Assembly: GCA_017453985.1 (NCBI GenBank) | Contig: JAFTDT010000110.1 | Location: forward strand, 1 to 35,961 | DNA from: Clostridia bacterium | GTDB lineage: Bacteria; Bacillota; Clostridia; Oscillospirales; Butyricicoccaceae | Direction of reading: 5' to 3' | Length of the DNA: 35,961 bases | The notes under the pieces: generated by a model | What the model was told of the DNA's origin: nothing | Database searches by the model: none | Seen by the model: the letters and a program-made list of their open reading frames with translations, nothing else | In this document: in pieces, positions 21,520 to 29,943 of the stretch | How the letters are laid out: each line of letters starts with the position of its first letter | Position numbering within the stretch: the first letter of the stretch is position 1 | Program-made: the position numbers and the translations under genes

Positions 21520-21577
21520 ATTTTGTTAGAATGGCGGTGTGTTTGCGCCGCCCAAAGGGATTGGACGGTTGCTTGCT

Positions 21578-22336
21578 ATGGAGATAAACGGCATACCAAT
21601 AAATTATATAGACACGGGCGGAGAGGGTCGCACGGCGCTCTTTCTGCACGGCTGGGGCGCGCATATCGGGCTGTACGGGCGCATTTTCGAGCTGCTGGCG
21701 GGCATGGGATGGCGCGTGCTTGCCTTTGATATGCCGGGTGTGGGCGGCACGCCGGAGCCGCCGCAGCCGCTGACGGTGGAGGACTACTGCGATATCGTGC
21801 TGGAGTTCTGTCGTCGGGCGGGCGTGCAGCCGGAGCTGCTGCTGGGGCATTCCCATGGCGGCAGGGTCTCGCTGCGTCTGCTGGGGATGGGGCTGCTGAG
21901 CTGTCCGCGCGCCGTGCTGATAGACTCGGCGGGCATACCCTCGAAAAAAACGCTCGGCGCGAAGCTGCGTCTGCGGGCGTATAAGGTGCTTTCGCGCGCC
22001 GCGCATACCCGCCTGCTCGCGCCGCTGCTCGGCGGGGCTTACGAGCGGGCGCGCGAGCGTCGCAGCAGCGCGGACTACCGCGCCGCCTCGCCTGTGATGA
22101 GGCAGACGATGAACAATATCCTGGCGGCGGATATGCGTCCGCTGATGCCGGACATACGCGCCTCGGTGCTGCTGGTCTGGGGCGAGAACGACGCCGACAC
22201 CCCGCCGGAAAACGGGCGGGAGATGGAGCGGCTGATCCCCGGTGCGGGGCTGGCGCTCATCCGCGGCGCGGGGCACTTCTGCTTTGCCGACAACTGGCGG
22301 CAGTTTGCCGCCGTGCTGGAGGCGTTTTTGAAATAG
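21578..22336 (+). CDS. Alpha/beta-fold hydrolase in a cell-wall precursor operon
   Basis: 252 residues from the ATG at 21578 (an in-frame GTG at 21539 would add 13 residues but lies too near the predicted transcription start). The nucleophile elbow is GHSHG with Ser92, the oxyanion segment is LFLHGWGAH (21-29), the acid is in WGENDAD (Asp205 or Asp207) and the base is in GAGHF (His233), so the catalytic triad is complete. It resembles small esterase/lipase-like hydrolases. The substrate is unknown; being first in an operon with a Mur ligase and a D-Ala-D-Ala ligase hints at a cell-envelope substrate. The Mur ligase gene follows 12 bases after its stop. Confidence 0.85.
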   Translation: MEINGIPINYIDTGGEGRTALFLHGWGAHIGLYGRIFELLAGMGWRVLAFDMPGVGGTPEPPQPLTVEDYCDIVLEFCRRAGVQPELLLGHSHGGRVSLRLLGMGLLSCPRAVLIDSAGIPSKKTLGAKLRLRAYKVLSRAAHTRLLAPLLGGAYERARERRSSADYRAASPVMRQTMNNILAADMRPLMPDIRASVLLVWGENDADTPPENGREMERLIPGAGLALIRGAGHFCFADNWRQFAAVLEAFLK

Positions 22337-22348
22337 GAGGTCAGAGAA

Positions 22349-23884
22349 ATGGAGACATGGAAGCTCATATTACAGGCAGCGGCGCTGCTCTTCTGCGCCG
22401 CGCTGCATTACCTGCGCTTCATGCACATGTATCAGCTCAATTCCTATCAGAATATGTCGTATACGAAATATCTGCGCGACAATCCCGCAACGTACGTCGG
22501 GCTGCTGGTGATGGCTCCGGCGGCGGTGATGGCGGCGGGGCTGCTGACGGAGCGATGGACGGTGACGCTGGCTGGCGCGCTGCTGCATGCGCTGCTGAAC
22601 TGGCCGAAAAAGGCGAAGAAGCCGCTGGTGATGACGCCGCGTGTGTGGCGCATGACTGCCGCCGCGCTGGTGATAACCTGCGCGCTGCTGCTGACTGTGC
22701 AGCTCCCCGCGCCCTACCGCGCCGTGGCGGCGCTGGCGGTGCTGCTGCAGCCGCTGCTGGTCATGCTGTATGCGCTGCTGCTCTCTCCGGTGGAGAAGCT
22801 GATAAACCGCCGCTATATCAACGACGCGCGGCGCATACTGGACGGACTGCCGCGCCTGCGCATCATCGGCATCACGGGCAGCTACGGCAAGACGAGCATG
22901 AAATATTTTCTGCGCGAGCTTCTCAGCGAGCAGTACAATGTTTATATGACGCCCGGCAACTTCAATACCACGCTCGGCGTGGTGCGGGCGATACGCGGGG
23001 GACTCAGCCCCGTGCATGATATCTTTCTCTGTGAGATGGGCGCGCGCCACCCGGGTGATATCCGCGAGATATGCGAGCTGGTAAAGCCGGAGATGGGCGT
23101 GATAACCTACATCGGCGCGCAGCATCTGGAGACCTTTGGCTCCCAGCAGACGATAACGGACACCAAGCTGGAGCTGGCGCGGGCGGTGGAGGAGAGCGGC
23201 ACGCTCTTCCTCAATTTTTCCAGCCCGATAGTGCGCGAGCAGGAATATCTGGGACGCAGGGTGTCTTACAGCACTTACGGCACGGCGGACTTCGTCGCCT
23301 CGGATATCACGGTCTCGCGCAGCGGATCGGAGTTCACCGTCACCGCTCCCGGCGGCGCGAGCTGCCGCTTTTCCACAAGGCTTTTGGGCGACGCCAATGT
23401 GGAAAATCTGCTCGGCGCCATCGCCGTGGCGAACACGCTGGGGCTGCCGATGGAGAGGCTGGCACCCGCCGTGCGGCGCATACAGAGCCCGCCGCACCGC
23501 CTCGAGCTGATAAACGCCGGCGACCTCGCCATCATCGACGATACCTACAAGTCCAACCCGCAGGGCGCCAAGGTGGCGATTGATACGCTGGCGCGCTTTG
23601 ACGGGCTGCGCGTGCTTGCCACGCCGGGGCTGGTCGAGCTGGGTGAGCGCGAGGAGGCGGAGAACCGCGCGCTGGGCGCGGAGGCTGCGAATAGCTGCGA
23701 CGTGCTGATATTGGTGACCAACCGCCGCACGAAGTATATTCGCTCGGGCGCGCTGGATGCGGGCTTCCCGCCGGACAGCATTTTTGAGGTGAGCGACGCG
23801 GCGGCAGCGGTGGCGATAGCCCGCGCCTTTGACGACGCGCAAAAAACTGTGCTGCTGCTCAACGACCTCACGGATAATTATTGA
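22349..23884 (+). CDS. Membrane-embedded MurF-like Mur ligase
   Basis: 511 residues. The first 150 or so contain four to five hydrophobic helices (about 5-23, 49-65, 73-85, 103-119, 127-146). Then follows a Mur ligase central domain with the ATP-binding loop GITGSYGKTS (174-183), the MurF-like segment PGNFNTTLGVVRAI, the acidic FLCEMGARHPGDI and a C-terminal ligase domain with DDTYKSNPQGAK. Classical MurF (about 450 residues) adds D-Ala-D-Ala to UDP-MurNAc-tripeptide and begins with a UDP-substrate domain; here that region is replaced by membrane helices. It may therefore act on a lipid-linked or membrane-proximal acceptor. The D-Ala-D-Ala ligase gene follows 24 bases later, so the dipeptide product is a likely substrate. 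An AGGAGGT site precedes the ATG. Confidence 0.88.
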   Translation: METWKLILQAAALLFCAALHYLRFMHMYQLNSYQNMSYTKYLRDNPATYVGLLVMAPAAVMAAGLLTERWTVTLAGALLHALLNWPKKAKKPLVMTPRVWRMTAAALVITCALLLTVQLPAPYRAVAALAVLLQPLLVMLYALLLSPVEKLINRRYINDARRILDGLPRLRIIGITGSYGKTSMKYFLRELLSEQYNVYMTPGNFNTTLGVVRAIRGGLSPVHDIFLCEMGARHPGDIREICELVKPEMGVITYIGAQHLETFGSQQTITDTKLELARAVEESGTLFLNFSSPIVREQEYLGRRVSYSTYGTADFVASDITVSRSGSEFTVTAPGGASCRFSTRLLGDANVENLLGAIAVANTLGLPMERLAPAVRRIQSPPHRLELINAGDLAIIDDTYKSNPQGAKVAIDTLARFDGLRVLATPGLVELGEREEAENRALGAEAANSCDVLILVTNRRTKYIRSGALDAGFPPDSIFEVSDAAAAVAIARAFDDAQKTVLLLNDLTDNY

Positions 23885-23908
23885 CAATCTCTCTTAGGAG
23901 GCTTTTTT

Positions 23909-25132
23909 ATGAAGATAAGAGTCGGAGTGTTTTTCGGCGGTCAGAGCGTGGAGCATGAGGTGTCCGTCATCACCGCCATGCAGGCGGCTGCCGCGCTCGA
24001 CCGCACGAAATACGAGCCGGTCGCCGTGTACGTGACCAAGGAGCTGGCGTTTTTCACCGGGGAAAACCTGCTCTCCATAGAGAGCTTTCGCGATATACCC
24101 GCCGCGCTGCGGGCGGCGCAGCGCGTCACCCTCGTGCGCGACGGCGCGGAGGTGCATATGACGGCGTACCCGCCCAAAAAGCTGAGGAGCAGTGACATGG
24201 GCGTGCTGCACGCCGCGCTGTTGGCGTTCCACGGCACGACGGGCGAGGACGGCTGCATGCAGGGCATGCTGGAAACGCTCATGCTGCCCTACACCGGCTG
24301 CGACGTGACGGCGAGCGCCATCGGCATGGACAAGTGGGCGATGAAGGCGGCGTTTATGATGAACGGCGTGCCCTGCCTGCCGGCGGCGCGGATAAGCCGC
24401 ACGGAATATTACGCGGATACCGCCGCCGCGGCGGAGTGCGCCGAGCGCGGCGCGGGCGGCAGCTATCCCATCATAGTCAAGCCGTACAACCTCGGCTCCA
24501 GCGTCGGTATCGGGCTGGCGCACGACAGGGCGGAGCTGCTGACGGCGCTGGAGGAGGCGCTGCAATATTCAAACGCCGCGATATGCGAGCGGGCGATAAC
24601 CTCTTTGCGGGAGATAAACTGCTCCGTGCTGGGCGACAGCGACGGCGCGCGCGCCTCCGTCTGCGAGGAGCCGCTGGGACAGGAGGGCTTCCTTTCCTAT
24701 GCGGACAAATATCAGGGCGGCGGCAAGGGCGCGAAGGGCAGCGGCTCGGAGGGCATGCGCAGCCTCTCGCGCAAGGTGCCGGCGGAGCTGACGCCGGAGC
24801 AGACCGCGCAGGCGCAGAAGCTGGCGCTGGACGCATTCGGAGCGGTCGGCGCGGAGGGCGTGGCGCGCGTGGATCTGATGCTCGACACCGCAGACGGCAG
24901 CTTTTACGTCAATGAGATAAACACCATCCCCGGCTCGCTCTCCTTTTATCTGTGGGAGCACAGCGGACTGAGCTTCACGCAGCTTTTGGACGAGCTGCTG
25001 GAGCTTGCGTTCAAGCGCCGCCGCAGGCGCGACAGCCTGCACTTCTCCTTTGACGTCAATCTGCTGGCGAACGCCACTCTCGGCGGCGGTAAGAACGGCG
25101 GCAAGGGCGGCGTTAAGGGCGGAGCGTCCTGA
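23909..25132 (+). CDS. ddl: D-alanine-D-alanine ligase (ATP-grasp), long form
   Basis: 407 residues, longer than the usual 300-370. It has the N-terminal GGQSVEHEVSV, the GEDGCMQGMLE segment (113-122), KPYNLGSSVGIG in the ATP-grasp core and the Mg-binding NEINTIPGS (335-343). The omega-loop motif YADKY (264-268) fits the Y-x-x-K-Y of D-Ala-D-Ala ligases rather than the sequence of D-Ala-D-Lac ligases. Two oddities: a Gly/Lys/Ser-rich insert just after that motif (about 270-284), and a C-terminal extension with five consecutive Arg (370-374) and a Gly/Lys-rich end. It is placed between a membrane Mur ligase and ChrA genes in one operon. Confidence 0.93.
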   Translation: MKIRVGVFFGGQSVEHEVSVITAMQAAAALDRTKYEPVAVYVTKELAFFTGENLLSIESFRDIPAALRAAQRVTLVRDGAEVHMTAYPPKKLRSSDMGVLHAALLAFHGTTGEDGCMQGMLETLMLPYTGCDVTASAIGMDKWAMKAAFMMNGVPCLPAARISRTEYYADTAAAAECAERGAGGSYPIIVKPYNLGSSVGIGLAHDRAELLTALEEALQYSNAAICERAITSLREINCSVLGDSDGARASVCEEPLGQEGFLSYADKYQGGGKGAKGSGSEGMRSLSRKVPAELTPEQTAQAQKLALDAFGAVGAEGVARVDLMLDTADGSFYVNEINTIPGSLSFYLWEHSGLSFTQLLDELLELAFKRRRRRDSLHFSFDVNLLANATLGGGKNGGKGGVKGGAS

Positions 25133-25139
25133 GGCGGTC

Positions 25140-25706
25140 ATGGAGCAGAGCAAAAGAAAGCTGTACTGGACGCTGTTTTCCTCCACCTTTGTGATAAGCG
25201 CCTTTACGGTGGGCGGCGGCATGGTGATAATCCCGCTGCTGCAAAAAAAGTTTGTGGACGAGCTGAAATGGCTGGAGCAGGACGAGATGCTGGAGATGGT
25301 GGCGATAGCGCAGTCCTCGCCGGGCGTGATGGCGGTCAACGCCGCCATAATTATCGGCTACCGGCTGGCGGGCGTGGCGGGCGCGCTGGTGACGGTGCTG
25401 GGCACCGTGCTGCCTCCGCTCATCACCCTCTCGCTCATCTCGCTGGTATATGCGTGGTTCGCTTCCAACCGCTGGGTGGCGGCGGCGCTGCGCGGCATGA
25501 AGGCGGGCGTGGCGGCGGTCATGGCGGATATCACGCTCAAGCTGTTCGCAGGCGTATATAAGACCGGGAAAATATGGTGCATGGCGCTGTGCGTGCTGGC
25601 GGCGGCAGCGGCGGTGCTGACGGAGGTCAACATCGTGTTCATCATCCTTGCCTGCGGCGTGTGCGGCGGCGTGATGAGCTGGCTGGAGAGGAGGCGGTCG
25701 GCGTGA
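25140..25706 (+). CDS. Chromate transporter family protein, first half (ChrA-like)
   Basis: 188 residues from the ATG at 25140, seven bases after the ddl stop. This is a single CHR domain: FTVGGGMVIIPLL and AIAQSSPGVMAVNAAIIIGY are the conserved N-terminal and PG motifs. Short-chain CHR proteins function as pairs, one gene per half, and the second half overlaps its end by four bases (GTGA). Family members export chromate or related oxyanions, but many clostridial pairs have no tested substrate. Confidence 0.9.
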   Translation: MEQSKRKLYWTLFSSTFVISAFTVGGGMVIIPLLQKKFVDELKWLEQDEMLEMVAIAQSSPGVMAVNAAIIIGYRLAGVAGALVTVLGTVLPPLITLSLISLVYAWFASNRWVAAALRGMKAGVAAVMADITLKLFAGVYKTGKIWCMALCVLAAAAAVLTEVNIVFIILACGVCGGVMSWLERRRSA

Positions 25707-26263
25707 TATACTGGCAGCTTTTCCGCACCTTTATGATAATCGGCGTGTGCTGCTTCGGCGGGGGCTATGCCGCCCTGCCCTTTATACAGGGCTGGGTCGT
25801 GGACCGCTACGCATGGCTCGGCATGGAGCAGTTCATCGACGTGGTCACCATTTCGCAGATGACGCCGGGACCGATCGGGATAAACGCCGCCACCTTCGTG
25901 GGTACGCAGCTTGCGGGTCTGCCGGGGGCGATCGCCGCAACGCTGGGCTTTATCTGCCCGTCCGTGGTCATCGTGCTGGCGCTTTCGCGCTTTTACTTCA
26001 AATACCGCAGTCTGGAGCTGGTCGGCGGCGTGCTGACGGGGCTGAAGCCGGCGGTGGCGGCGCTGATATTCGCCTCCACGGTCACCATAGTCCGCAGCGC
26101 GCTGTGGGAAACGGGCGTGCTGACAGAGCCTAATCTCGCTGCGCTGTGCATCGCGGCGGCGGGCTTTCTGGCGCTGCGCCGCGCCAAGGCGGGACCGATG
26201 ACGGTCATCTTCGGCAGCGGCGTCGCCGGTCTGCTGGTCTACGGTCTGCTGGGAGTTAAATAA
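25703..26263 (+). CDS. Chromate transporter family protein, second half (ChrA-like)
   Basis: 186 residues from a GTG at 25703, which overlaps the stop of the first half and has a GGAGAGGAGG site in front. The CHR motifs FGGGYAALPFI and QMTPGPIGINAATFVG are intact. It would pair with the preceding half in opposite membrane orientation to form the transporter. It ends the operon that starts with the hydrolase gene. A 16-bp palindrome begins two bases after its stop codon. Confidence 0.9.
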   Translation: MIYWQLFRTFMIIGVCCFGGGYAALPFIQGWVVDRYAWLGMEQFIDVVTISQMTPGPIGINAATFVGTQLAGLPGAIAATLGFICPSVVIVLALSRFYFKYRSLELVGGVLTGLKPAVAALIFASTVTIVRSALWETGVLTEPNLAALCIAAAGFLALRRAKAGPMTVIFGSGVAGLLVYGLLGVK

Positions 26264-26371: not shown

Positions 26372-26400
26372 TTGCGAAAAAGTCCGAGCTGTGCTATAAT
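26372..26400 (+). promoter_or_regulatory. Sigma-A promoter of the hom-lysC-asd group
   Basis: TTGCGA (26372-26377), 17-base spacer, TATAAT (26395-26400). The leader to the hom ATG is only about 40 bases, too short for a lysine riboswitch or T-box. Confidence 0.75.
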
Positions 26401-26446
26401 GCATGCAACTTTAAAATATTCACTGCATAAGTCAGGAGGTTGCTGC

Positions 26447-27544
26447 ATGAAAACGGCTATATTGGGAGCCGGCTGCGTTGGCGGCGGGCTTTTGCATATT
26501 CTGGACGAGAGCGGCGTCGCGCAGGCGGCGCGGATAGTGGAGCGCGAGGGCAGTCTCTGCACGGATCCCCGCGTGACGCACGATATAAACGAAGTGCTGC
26601 GGGACGGCGGCATCGAGGCGGTCGCGGAGGCGATAGGAGGCGTGGGCGCGGCATATGAATATGTGCTGGCGGCGCTCAAGTGCGGCAAGCACGTCGTCAC
26701 CGCCAACAAGCAGCTCGTCGCGGAGCGCGGCGCGGAGCTGCATGCCGCCGCGCAAAAAAGCGGCGCGGCGCTGCTGTTCAGCGCGGCGTGCGGCGGGGGC
26801 ATACCGTTTTTGCGGGAGCTGGCTGCCGCGGCGCGCTATGACGACGTGCTTTCCCTCGGCGGGATACTAAACGGCACGGCAAACTATATCCTCGACCTCA
26901 TGCAGCAGGGCGGCTCCTTTGAGCATGCGCTGGCTGAGGCGCAGGCGCTGGGATATGCGGAGGCAGACCCCTCGGCGGATATCGACGGGCACGACACCGC
27001 GCGCAAGTGTGCGCTGGGCTGTGCCGTGGCGTTTGGGGAACTTCCGGCGCAAAGCAGCATATTGATGGAAGGGATACGTTACATAACCGCGGAGGATGTG
27101 CGCGAGCTTGCTTCCCGCGGGCTGTGCTGCCGGCTGACCGCTTATGCGGAGCGGCGTGAGGGCGGCCTTTTCGCCTGTGTGCAGCCGGAGCTGTTTACGC
27201 TGGATTCCGCGCCGGCGGCGGTGCGGCAGAACTACAACCGCGCGTGGTATTATCTGCGCTACGGCGGGCTTTTCGCCCTCACGGGGCAGGGCGCGGGCGC
27301 GCTGCCGACGGGCGGCGCCATGGCGCGCGATCTGTGCGATATCATGGCGGGGACGCGAACCATGCTGGCGCAGGGCTGCCGATCTGCGGCGGCGGACGGC
27401 GATAAGGAATATAAATATTATATAAGAGTGAGCGGAGAAGGCACGGAATACACGGCGCGGATCAGCGCAAGAGAGATGCACCGACGCGCGAAAGAATTGC
27501 GCGGGCAGGGCAAAGAGGTGTTTTTCGCCGCTTTGGACGAATAA
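26447..27544 (+). CDS. hom: Homoserine dehydrogenase
   Basis: 365 residues from the ATG at 26447, preceded by CAGGAGG. The dinucleotide-binding segment AILGAGCVGGG (4-14), the ANKQLVAE segment and the catalytic-domain motif GGILNGTANYILDLM followed by GYAEADPSADIDGHDTARK are diagnostic. It reduces aspartate-4-semialdehyde to homoserine, leading to threonine and methionine. The protein ends soon after the catalytic domain and shows no clear C-terminal ACT domain (family members with ACT reach about 430 residues), so feedback by threonine may be absent or different. It is first of three aspartate-pathway genes. Confidence 0.95.
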   Translation: MKTAILGAGCVGGGLLHILDESGVAQAARIVEREGSLCTDPRVTHDINEVLRDGGIEAVAEAIGGVGAAYEYVLAALKCGKHVVTANKQLVAERGAELHAAAQKSGAALLFSAACGGGIPFLRELAAAARYDDVLSLGGILNGTANYILDLMQQGGSFEHALAEAQALGYAEADPSADIDGHDTARKCALGCAVAFGELPAQSSILMEGIRYITAEDVRELASRGLCCRLTAYAERREGGLFACVQPELFTLDSAPAAVRQNYNRAWYYLRYGGLFALTGQGAGALPTGGAMARDLCDIMAGTRTMLAQGCRSAAADGDKEYKYYIRVSGEGTEYTARISAREMHRRAKELRGQGKEVFFAALDE

Positions 27545-27570
27545 ACAGATGTGAAACGGAGAAGCGTGAC

Positions 27571-28884
27571 ATGCTCAAGGTGGTCAAATTCGGCGGCTCG
27601 TCGCTGGCAGACGCCGGACAGTTCAGAAAAGTTAAGAATATCGTGACCGAGGGCATGGAGCGCCGCGTGGTGGTGGTGTCCGCGCCGGGCAAGGGCGAGA
27701 AAAACGGCAGCAAGGTGACGGATATGCTTTATCGCTGTCACGACACGATAGGCACGCCGCTCTGCCGCGAGATATTTGAGGAGATACGCGCCCGCTTTGT
27801 CTCCATACGTGACGGGCTGGGGCTGAAATGCGACGTCGAGAGCCGCTTTGAGCAGCTCTGGGACATCATGGACGAGACTATGACGCGCGACTTTCTCGCC
27901 TCGCGCGGGGAATATTTTTCCGCGCTGCTGATGGCGGAGTTTCTCGGCTATACCTTTCTGGACGCGGTGAACTGCGTGTTTTTCACCACCGACGGCGAGA
28001 TAGACCGCGAGCGGACGTACGAGGCGATACGCACGGCTCACGAGCGGCGCGGCGCGCTGGTCATACCGGGTTTTTACGGCAGAGGCGCCGAGGGCGTGGA
28101 GACTATGAGCCGAGGCGGCTCGGATATTACCGGATCGCTGGCGGCGGCGGCGCTGGATGCGGAGATATATGAAAACTGGACGGACGTTTCCGGCATACTT
28201 ATGGCGGACCCCAAGATAGTCAGCGATCCGCGCCGCATACCGCACCTTACATACGGCGAGCTGAGCATGCTTTCGCACATGGGCGCGTCGGTGCTGCATC
28301 CGATGAGCGTCGCGCCGGTGCGCGACAAGGGCATACCGATAAACATACGCAATACCGAGCGCCCGCAGGACGACGGCACCTTTATAGAGGATCGCGCGCC
28401 GGAGGGCGGGGACGGCGGCAGGTTCATCACCGGCGTCACCGGCAGACGCGGCTTTTCCGTCTTTACCGTGCATAAAAAGGTTGGCTTTGTCAAGAGCGCG
28501 TTTGTGCGCGCGGCGCTGGAGATATTCGAGCATTACCGCGTGCAGGTGGAGCACGTCACCTTTGGCATAGACGCCTTTTCGCTGGTGGCTTCTGCAAGCG
28601 AGATCGGCGGGCGCACCTTCGAGCTGATACGGGCGCTGGAGGAGCGCATCGCGCCGGAATATGTCTCGCTGAGCGAGAATGTCTCGCTGGTGGCGGCGGT
28701 CGGCAGGCGCATGGTCAGCCGCCGCGGCGTTTCCGGCAGACTGTTCCGCGCGCTGGGGGACAACGGCGTGAATATTCGCATGATAGCGCAGGACACGGAC
28801 GAGCAGAGCATCGTCGTAGGTGTGGAGGATGGCGATTTTGAAAACACTATAAGGGTGCTTTATAACGAGTTTGCACTGACGTAA
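27571..28884 (+). CDS. lysC: Aspartate kinase, monofunctional
   Basis: 437 residues. KFGGSSLAD at the N-terminus (6-14) is the kinase signature, ASRGEYFSALLMAEFLG is the substrate region, and the C-terminal third has ACT-type regulatory sequence (GRRGFSVFTVHK and NGVNIRMIAQDTDEQSIVVGV). It phosphorylates aspartate, the first step to lysine, threonine, methionine and diaminopimelate, and the ACT region predicts feedback control by an end-product amino acid. It starts 26 bases after hom with a CGGAGAAG site. The exact symbol (lysC versus thrA/dapG type) is a convention choice. Confidence 0.95.
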   Translation: MLKVVKFGGSSLADAGQFRKVKNIVTEGMERRVVVVSAPGKGEKNGSKVTDMLYRCHDTIGTPLCREIFEEIRARFVSIRDGLGLKCDVESRFEQLWDIMDETMTRDFLASRGEYFSALLMAEFLGYTFLDAVNCVFFTTDGEIDRERTYEAIRTAHERRGALVIPGFYGRGAEGVETMSRGGSDITGSLAAAALDAEIYENWTDVSGILMADPKIVSDPRRIPHLTYGELSMLSHMGASVLHPMSVAPVRDKGIPINIRNTERPQDDGTFIEDRAPEGGDGGRFITGVTGRRGFSVFTVHKKVGFVKSAFVRAALEIFEHYRVQVEHVTFGIDAFSLVASASEIGGRTFELIRALEERIAPEYVSLSENVSLVAAVGRRMVSRRGVSGRLFRALGDNGVNIRMIAQDTDEQSIVVGVEDGDFENTIRVLYNEFALT

Positions 28885-28938
28885 AGCGCCGGGCAAACGC
28901 CGCGGCGTTATCAATCTCTTACTTTGGAGGACTTAGCC

Positions 28939-29943
28939 ATGAAAAAATACAATGTCGCCGTGCTGGGCGCCACGGGCGCGGTAGGGCGCGAGATGATACG
29001 GGCGCTGGAGGAGCGCGCCTTTCCCGTGGAGCGGCTGCTGCCGCTGGCGAGCGCCCGCAGCGCGGGCAAGAAGATAAGCTTCCGCGGCGCGGAGGCAGAG
29101 GTGCGGGAGGCGCAGCCAGACGCCTTTGCCGGCATGGATATCGTGCTGGGCGCGGTGGACAGCGCCCGCGCGCGTGAGCTGGCGCCGCATATCACCGCCG
29201 CCGGTGCGGTGTTCATCGACAATTCCTCGGCGTTCCGCATGGAGCCGGAGGTGCCGCTGGTCGTGCCGGAGATAAACGGCGCGGACGCGCTTGCGCACAA
29301 GGGGATCATCGCCAATCCCAACTGCTCCACCATCATCGCAATGGTGGCGCTGGCGCCGATCGCGGAGCTCTCGCCGATAAAGACCGTGGTCGCCTCCACC
29401 TATCAGGCGGTGTCCGGCGCGGGACAGGAGGGACTGACGGAGCTGGAGGAGCAGCTCTCCGCGCTGGCAAAGGGCGAGCCGGCGCCGGCGGGGAAGGTAT
29501 TCCCCTGCCGGATAGCGGGCAACGTGGTGCCGTATATCGGCAAATATAAGGAAAACATGTTCACCGACGAGGAGATGAAGATGCAGAATGAGGGCAGACG
29601 CATACTGCACCTGCCAGAGCTGCGGGTGAGCTGCACCTGCGTGCGCGTGCCGGTCATGCGCTCGCACTCCATCTCGCTCAGCGTGGTGACGGAGAGGGAC
29701 GTTTCGCCGGAGGAGGCGATGGAGGCGATATCGCGCGGCGCGGGCTGCGCCGTCGCTCCGTTTGACGGGCGGGATTTTCCCACGCCGCTGGACAGCTCGG
29801 AGCAGGACCTCGTGATGGTCGGGCGTGTGCGGCGCGGACTGTGCCATGAAAACGAGCTGTGCCTGTGGTGCTGCGGCGACCAGCTCCGCAAGGGCGCGGC
29901 GGTCAACGCCGTGCAGATAGCCGAGATACTGGCGAGGGCATGA
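28939..29943 (+). CDS. asd: Aspartate-semialdehyde dehydrogenase
   Basis: 334 residues from the ATG at 28939, chosen for the TTGGAGG site before it (an upstream in-frame TTG at 28924 overlaps that site). VAVLGATGAVGREMI (7-20) is the NADP-binding loop, NPNCSTI carries the catalytic Cys129, and the later MRSHSISLSV segment carries conserved active-site residues. It reduces aspartyl phosphate to aspartate-4-semialdehyde, joining the kinase and homoserine dehydrogenase steps and supplying diaminopimelate for the cell wall. It lies 54 bases after lysC. Confidence 0.96.
   Translation: MKKYNVAVLGATGAVGREMIRALEERAFPVERLLPLASARSAGKKISFRGAEAEVREAQPDAFAGMDIVLGAVDSARARELAPHITAAGAVFIDNSSAFRMEPEVPLVVPEINGADALAHKGIIANPNCSTIIAMVALAPIAELSPIKTVVASTYQAVSGAGQEGLTELEEQLSALAKGEPAPAGKVFPCRIAGNVVPYIGKYKENMFTDEEMKMQNEGRRILHLPELRVSCTCVRVPVMRSHSISLSVVTERDVSPEEAMEAISRGAGCAVAPFDGRDFPTPLDSSEQDLVMVGRVRRGLCHENELCLWCCGDQLRKGAAVNAVQIAEILARA

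Follow-up and report, generated by a model that had tools for sequence, protein, structure and literature searches.

The only MurF of the draft genome studied here is a membrane-embedded enzyme, designated MurFm (the name given here to the membrane form of MurF), in which a predicted membrane domain replaces the part that binds UDP-MurNAc, and whose gene is followed directly by that of the genome's only D-alanine--D-alanine ligase (Ddl) (Table 1). MurFm very probably adds D-Ala-D-Ala to the peptidoglycan precursor, because it carries the catalytic motifs of MurF, because the step would otherwise be missing, and because the donor-making Ddl is encoded next to it. The window, i.e. the whole stretch of DNA that was analysed (35,961 nucleotides), corresponds to contig 76 of a draft genome of 2.06 Mb, 97.7% complete.

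Table 1. Genes and motifs of the MurFm locus (positions in the window; residue numbers refer to MurFm)
Feature	Position	Strand	Remark
Alpha/beta hydrolase, first gene of the trio	21539..22336	+	Pfam Abhydrolase_1 1.5e-21; 5' of MurFm in nearly all loci
MurFm (membrane MurF), 511 aa	22349..23884	+	Only MurF of the genome
Membrane domain, residues 1-165, about 5 predicted crossings; replaces UDP-MurNAc-binding domain	22349..22843	+	AlphaFold, profiles
Motif H26-M-Y-Q29-L-N-S-Y33, end of first helix	22424..22447	+	Q29, Y33 in 66/66; H26 in 65/66
Basic loop NWPKKAKKPLVMTPRVWR, residues 84-101, between membrane helices	22598..22651	+	K90, T96, R98, R101 in 66/66
P-loop GITGSYGKTS, residues 174-183, ATP-binding	22868..22897	+	Common to canonical MurF
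K273, place of the carbamoylated lysine of Mur ligases	23165..23167	+	66/66; aligns with conserved K of canonical MurF
MurF signature DDTYKSNP (family DDAYNSNP)	23537..23560	+	K401 where 65/66 have N
C-terminal NDLTDN motif, place of KGSR in canonical MurF	23861..23878	+	N505, D506, D509 in 66/66
Ddl, D-alanine--D-alanine ligase, 407 aa	23909..25132	+	NF002528 276 bits; only Ddl of the genome

Domain architecture and conserved motifs

Pfam recognises in MurFm the domains Mur_ligase_M (residues 175-361, 9e-36) and Mur_ligase_C (residues 383-503, 9e-9) but no Mur_ligase N-domain. Against the NCBIfam murF model (TIGR01143), MurFm scores 217.5 bits, below the cut-off of 288.6 (relatives of MurFm score 195-264 bits), and the match covers model positions 74-393 of 418; because the profile fits only from position 74 onwards, the absent part is the UDP-binding part. 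Hydropathy marks four membrane segments in the MurFm of the window, and N-terminal membrane segments are found in every relative. In the AlphaFold model (66 related sequences; mean pLDDT 93, pTM 0.88), the P-loop domain is preceded by helices at residues 2-30, 35-44, 52-66, 70-83, 97-118, 121-132 and 134-165, which would make about five membrane crossings, and the order of these helices suggests that the N-terminus lies outside and the ligase inside. When the whole model was compared with the PDB by Foldseek, ranks 1-9 were all MurF. Pfam, TIGR01143, hydropathy and AlphaFold thus agree with the initial annotation of this DNA, which had described a membrane-embedded Mur ligase without the UDP-substrate domain; its estimate of four to five membrane helices is matched by the four segments counted by hydropathy and the approximately five crossings of the structure prediction.

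The annotation had also held that the ATP loop and the C-terminal ligase domain are kept, and the P-loop, the catalytic Glu and His, K273 and Mur_ligase_C are indeed all present. The motifs that MurFm has in common with canonical MurF are TGSxGKTS, EMGA, QHLE, K273, NxxN, DDxYN and ELG, and within the P-loop residues G174, T176, G177, S178 and G180-S183 are invariant in MurFm. The signature motif of the window's own protein is slightly deviant: codon 401 (AAG, 23549-23551) specifies Lys for Asn, with Thr for Ala two residues earlier, and K401 is either specific to the lineage or the result of a sequencing error. The two forms part company at the C-terminal pocket, where MurFm has TPGxVELG as opposed to the LGxMxELG of canonical Clostridia MurF, and NDLxDN as opposed to KGSR, both TPGxVELG and NDLxDN being conserved within the membrane form; the initial annotation had passed over this difference. 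The MurE regions matching these two differing motifs contact the incoming amino acid. Judging from the motifs, the donor pocket of MurFm may have been rebuilt and, because its motifs differ from those of canonical MurF, the donor could differ from D-Ala-D-Ala, with a small chance that it is another dipeptide.

Does the membrane domain resemble anything known? Modelled alone, it is predicted at a pLDDT of 91.5, and Foldseek found no match for it among PDB folds (best E 1.7, TM 0.29); with no consistent Pfam family among 65 members either, the idea that it belongs to a known family was rejected. Its mean column identity across 66 sequences is only about 30%. Its conserved motifs are HMxQLxSY (residues 26-33) and KKAKKPLVxTxRVxR (residues 87-101), several positions of which do not vary (Table 1), and P147 and E149 are likewise invariant in all 66 MurFm sequences. 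With the topology suggested by the helix order, both motifs and the P147/E149 pair would lie on the cytosolic face, beside the ligase. Because there are residues invariant in 66/66 sequences at such low column identity, the membrane domain is, by its pattern of conservation, more than a plain anchor.

Gene neighbourhood

The three genes, hydrolase, MurFm and Ddl, follow one another on the same strand, separated by gaps of 12 and 24 bases, and, because the gaps are this short and both hold an AGGAGG site, they probably form one operon. The open reading frames of MurFm and Ddl were both recovered as first annotated. The coupling to a D-Ala-D-Ala ligase is equally sound, in that the partner in this operon is a real Ddl (domains PF01820 and PF07478) that exceeds the NF002528 cut-off of 262 bits.

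The hydrolase begins with GTG at 21539, and its true start may instead lie at the in-frame ATG at 21578. Its catalytic triad (S105, D218, H246) is invariant in 79/79 members of the trio, and among solved structures it comes closest to general esterases and lipases. Its link with MurFm is as close as that of Ddl, the same gene being found in loci L042-L121. The initial annotation suggested that it could remove or trim the product of the pair; that it edits wrong or spare precursor is a guess.

Behind the trio lie two adjacent half-size chromate-transporter-type genes (25005-26263) and, beyond these, hom, lysC and asd (26372-29943) of the aspartate pathway, a route that also supplies the cell wall with diaminopimelate. 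With these genes, the hydrolase and MurFm as its neighbours, the ligase is adjoined by neither vanH nor vanX.

The only MurF and the only Ddl

The genome has five Mur_ligase_M genes, namely MurE, MurD, MurC and FolC, all above curated cut-offs, and MurFm. A profile search of the genome (97.7% complete) found no canonical MurF elsewhere, nor is there a second Ddl in it. The dcw cluster has the order mraZ-rsmH-ftsL-spoVD-murE-mraY-ftsW-murG-murA-ftsQ-ftsZ (names read from translations), with murE followed directly by mraY, whereas those members of the family that have canonical MurF carry murF between the two. This adjacency was considered as proof of murF loss and rejected as such; the relation holds within the window's family, but because murE also stands next to mraY in some canonical genomes from other families, it counts as support only. 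Elsewhere in the genome, next to murD, four neighbouring paralogous open reading frames of about 340 aa on the minus strand (locus L008, G000:C27, 4652-8771) look like M42-type aminopeptidases, as read from their translations.

The same exclusivity is seen in other genomes. Among 54 genomes of the family, a full canonical MurF is encoded in 36 and a split one in G034; the membrane form is present in 16, and G050 has neither, so that 53 carry one form or the other and none carries both. A hidden canonical MurF was sought in the window's genome and in 59 other MurFm genomes, and was absent from 59 of these 60, which represent 35 genera and are mostly drafts, many of them more than 98% complete, some in a single contig and some of 0.8-1.2 Mb. 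The one genome with both forms (G248, with the membrane form at L180 and a canonical MurF above cut-off at L187) is possibly a snapshot of replacement, or else a case of contamination. The MurFm-linked Ddl is the sole Ddl in 37 of 42 MurFm genomes, that of the window included.

Because the genome has no other MurF or Ddl, MurFm and its partner are to be seen as the housekeeping pair and not as an extra step. The initial suggestion that MurFm catalyses a different step alongside a cytoplasmic MurF therefore finds no support, 59 of the 60 genomes with MurFm, this one included, having no such enzyme for it to work alongside. It had been foreseen that, should no other murF or ddl exist, the two genes would be just the ordinary housekeeping pair with an unusual anchor. 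The housekeeping part of that statement stands, and the ordinary enzyme with an anchor does not, given the strong residue-level constraint on the membrane domain.

Distribution and origin

The membrane form was found in 45 of the 293 genomes sampled across the class, belonging to 18 families, and in 14 more genomes elsewhere in the phylum; the class-wide counts rest on profile scores, by which split genes can be miscounted, as in G078, where the MurFm gene is split across two contigs. A named search yielded more than 550 relatives, the best 80 of which are mostly from Clostridia and include Butyrivibrio, Intestinimonas butyriciproducens, Anaeromicropila populeti and Diplocloster agilis. Among these best 80 of more than 550, the order hydrolase-MurFm-Ddl is found in 75 loci; in the other five, most of which lie at the end of a contig, two genes of the trio are seen. 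Since the whole trio recurs in 75/80 loci of other genomes, it is not a product of chance. In a tree of the ligase core with MurE as outgroup, MurFm is a single clade (55 rows, SH-aLRT 99) next to a single clade of canonical MurF (30 rows, 98), and on the MraY tree the MurF form switches at least 18 times. Because the membrane form is a single clade, yet is scattered across the species, it most likely arose once and subsequently replaced MurF, or was replaced by it, many times.

Proposed role and acceptor

Judging from sequence and structure prediction, on which the whole analysis is built, how would such an enzyme work? Ddl, expressed from the same operon, would join two D-Ala, and MurFm would use ATP to attach the resulting dipeptide to residue three of the MurNAc-tripeptide stem, the chemistry, as in MurF, being the work of the cytosolic Mur_ligase_M and C domains. 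In place of domain 1 of MurF, the membrane domain would hold the acceptor; that MurFm has the role of MurF and that its membrane domain takes part in acceptor binding, whichever the acceptor may be, we consider likely. In its host, MurFm is presumably essential.

On whether the acceptor is lipid-linked, our judgement is evenly balanced. A lipid-pyrophosphate-MurNAc acceptor fits because the membrane domain has invariant polar residues on what should be its cytosolic face; there, at the predicted helix-cytosol interface, the invariant Gln, Tyr, Lys, Arg and Thr might hold the pyrophosphate-MurNAc head of the lipid. The acceptor would then be lipid I or II carrying a tripeptide, and the peptide would be completed after MraY and not before. 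The complete scheme, according to which, in a large and patchy set of Clostridia and others in the phylum, MraY transfers the tripeptide and MurFm then completes the stem of lipid I/II, with a new membrane fold binding the acceptor, is offered tentatively, as a proposal that falls a little short of an even chance.

If the lipid came first, MraY would have to accept the tripeptide. The MraY enzymes that have been studied prefer the pentapeptide. With the MraY of the window's genome (L006:6542-7516) as reference, the column that differs most is residue 225, after the Asn of FNxxPAxxFMGD, where Lys, Arg or His is found in 39 of 70 MurFm genomes versus 9 of 87 canonical ones. Over independent pairs on the tree, co-change of MraY with MurFm was not significant (median p 0.5), and after this correction for kinship residue 225 was dropped as a signature of a tripeptide substrate.

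Perhaps, then, MraY did not need to change. This would be so if soluble UDP-MurNAc-tripeptide were still the substrate and the textbook order were preserved, with the membrane domain either binding UDP from the membrane surface or docking on MraY for direct handover; no significant change in MraY was found, the ligase core is that of MurF, and MurFm genomes keep intact genes for MurE and MraY, all of which this explanation accommodates. We regard it as the main rival and a real possibility, albeit a rather doubtful one, as it has to cope with the fact that the uridine-binding domain is wholly missing from MurFm and that docking alone leaves the residues invariant in 66/66 sequences unexplained, unless they contact MraY. 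In addition, MurT, which likewise has no uridine-binding function, is inactive on UDP precursors (PMC6085368).

The donor, too, might be unusual. The donor-side C-terminal motifs unlike those of canonical MurF, together with a hydrolase that looks active by its residues and is tied to the MurFm-Ddl pair, would suit a MurF that adds some other dipeptide (e.g. D-Ala-D-Ser or D-Ala-D-Lac), the hydrolase removing the unwanted form. What makes this improbable is the ligase itself, which scores best as a D-alanine--D-alanine ligase, far under the cut-offs of the VanA, VanC and VanG models, and has no vanH or vanX in its trio. Its K267-Y268 pair, present in 78/78 trio Ddl, is one that we take, from known Ddl structures, to place D-Ala rather than D-Lac or D-Ser at the second site. 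Finally, that MurFm is an accessory enzyme of a lipid-linked wall polymer or capsule, like CapB/PgsB, while a canonical MurF exists that escaped assembly or recognition, is very improbable and largely refuted: a gene could be missing from a genome 97.7% complete, and G248 does carry both forms, but canonical MurF is absent from 59/60 genomes of 35 genera, many more than 98% complete and some in one contig, and the two forms are mutually exclusive within one family.

The reading that we prefer, i.e. MurFm as the sole MurF with an acceptor-binding membrane domain, bears on an enzyme regarded as universal, cytoplasmic and a drug target. Common gut and rumen bacteria carry the membrane MurF (Butyrivibrio, Intestinimonas, and many Oscillospiraceae and Lachnospiraceae records), and in the whole genomes checked it is almost always the sole MurF. 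Since it falls below the curated murF cut-off, pathway reconstructions may call murF missing. Should the acceptor be lipid-linked, the textbook order of peptidoglycan synthesis would fail in these bacteria, and MurF inhibitors directed against the UDP-binding domain would miss them. In the open-licence literature that was searched, we found no description of a membrane MurF. The Mur-domain proteins counted in a phylogeny of 2025 number 12, with no membrane form of MurF among them (PMC11915815). MurFm is a MurF by its core and its probable role, yet lies outside the MurF family as defined.

Comparison with known systems

Actinobacterial vanHAX clusters have MurF- and MurG-like genes alongside, and in them, as in the MurFm locus, a MurF-type gene adjoins the gene of a D-Ala-D-X ligase (PMC8698665). 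That MurF has vanH and vanX beside it, whereas MurFm and Ddl are the genome's only MurF and Ddl and come without van genes. The vanI system of Desulfitobacterium was considered as a carrier of a membrane MurF and set aside, as the paper on it makes a single mention of MurF and speaks of no membrane or transmembrane protein. CapB/PgsB is, like MurFm, a membrane-associated Mur-type amide ligase; unlike MurFm, it polymerises glutamate and has no Ddl partner. It is also more likely to be kin of FPGS than of MurCDEF (PMC11915815).

MurT, of the MurT/GatD complex, resembles MurFm in being a Mur ligase that lacks the uridine-binding function associated with domain 1. The complex acts on lipid I and II, which it amidates, and on no UDP-linked precursor (PMC6085368), and by analogy may serve as a precedent for the loss of domain 1 in an enzyme with a lipid acceptor. 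Unlike MurFm, MurT pairs with the glutaminase GatD and amidates D-Glu, and its N-terminal region is described as mobile and unseen and not as a membrane domain (PMC6085368). MurFm is much closer to MurF, scoring 17.8 bits against the MurT model (cut-off 800) compared with 217 bits for MurF, and it has no GatD partner beside it, its neighbours being the hydrolase and Ddl.

With MurF itself (TIGR01143; PDB 1gg4, 4cvm, 3zl8, 4qf5), MurFm shares the ATP-binding and C-terminal domains with their catalytic motifs, the link with Ddl and the position of sole enzyme for its step in the genome. It differs from MurF in that a membrane domain takes the place of domain 1, which binds UDP-MurNAc, and in its C-terminal pocket motifs; it also forms a clade of its own and is encoded outside the dcw cluster.
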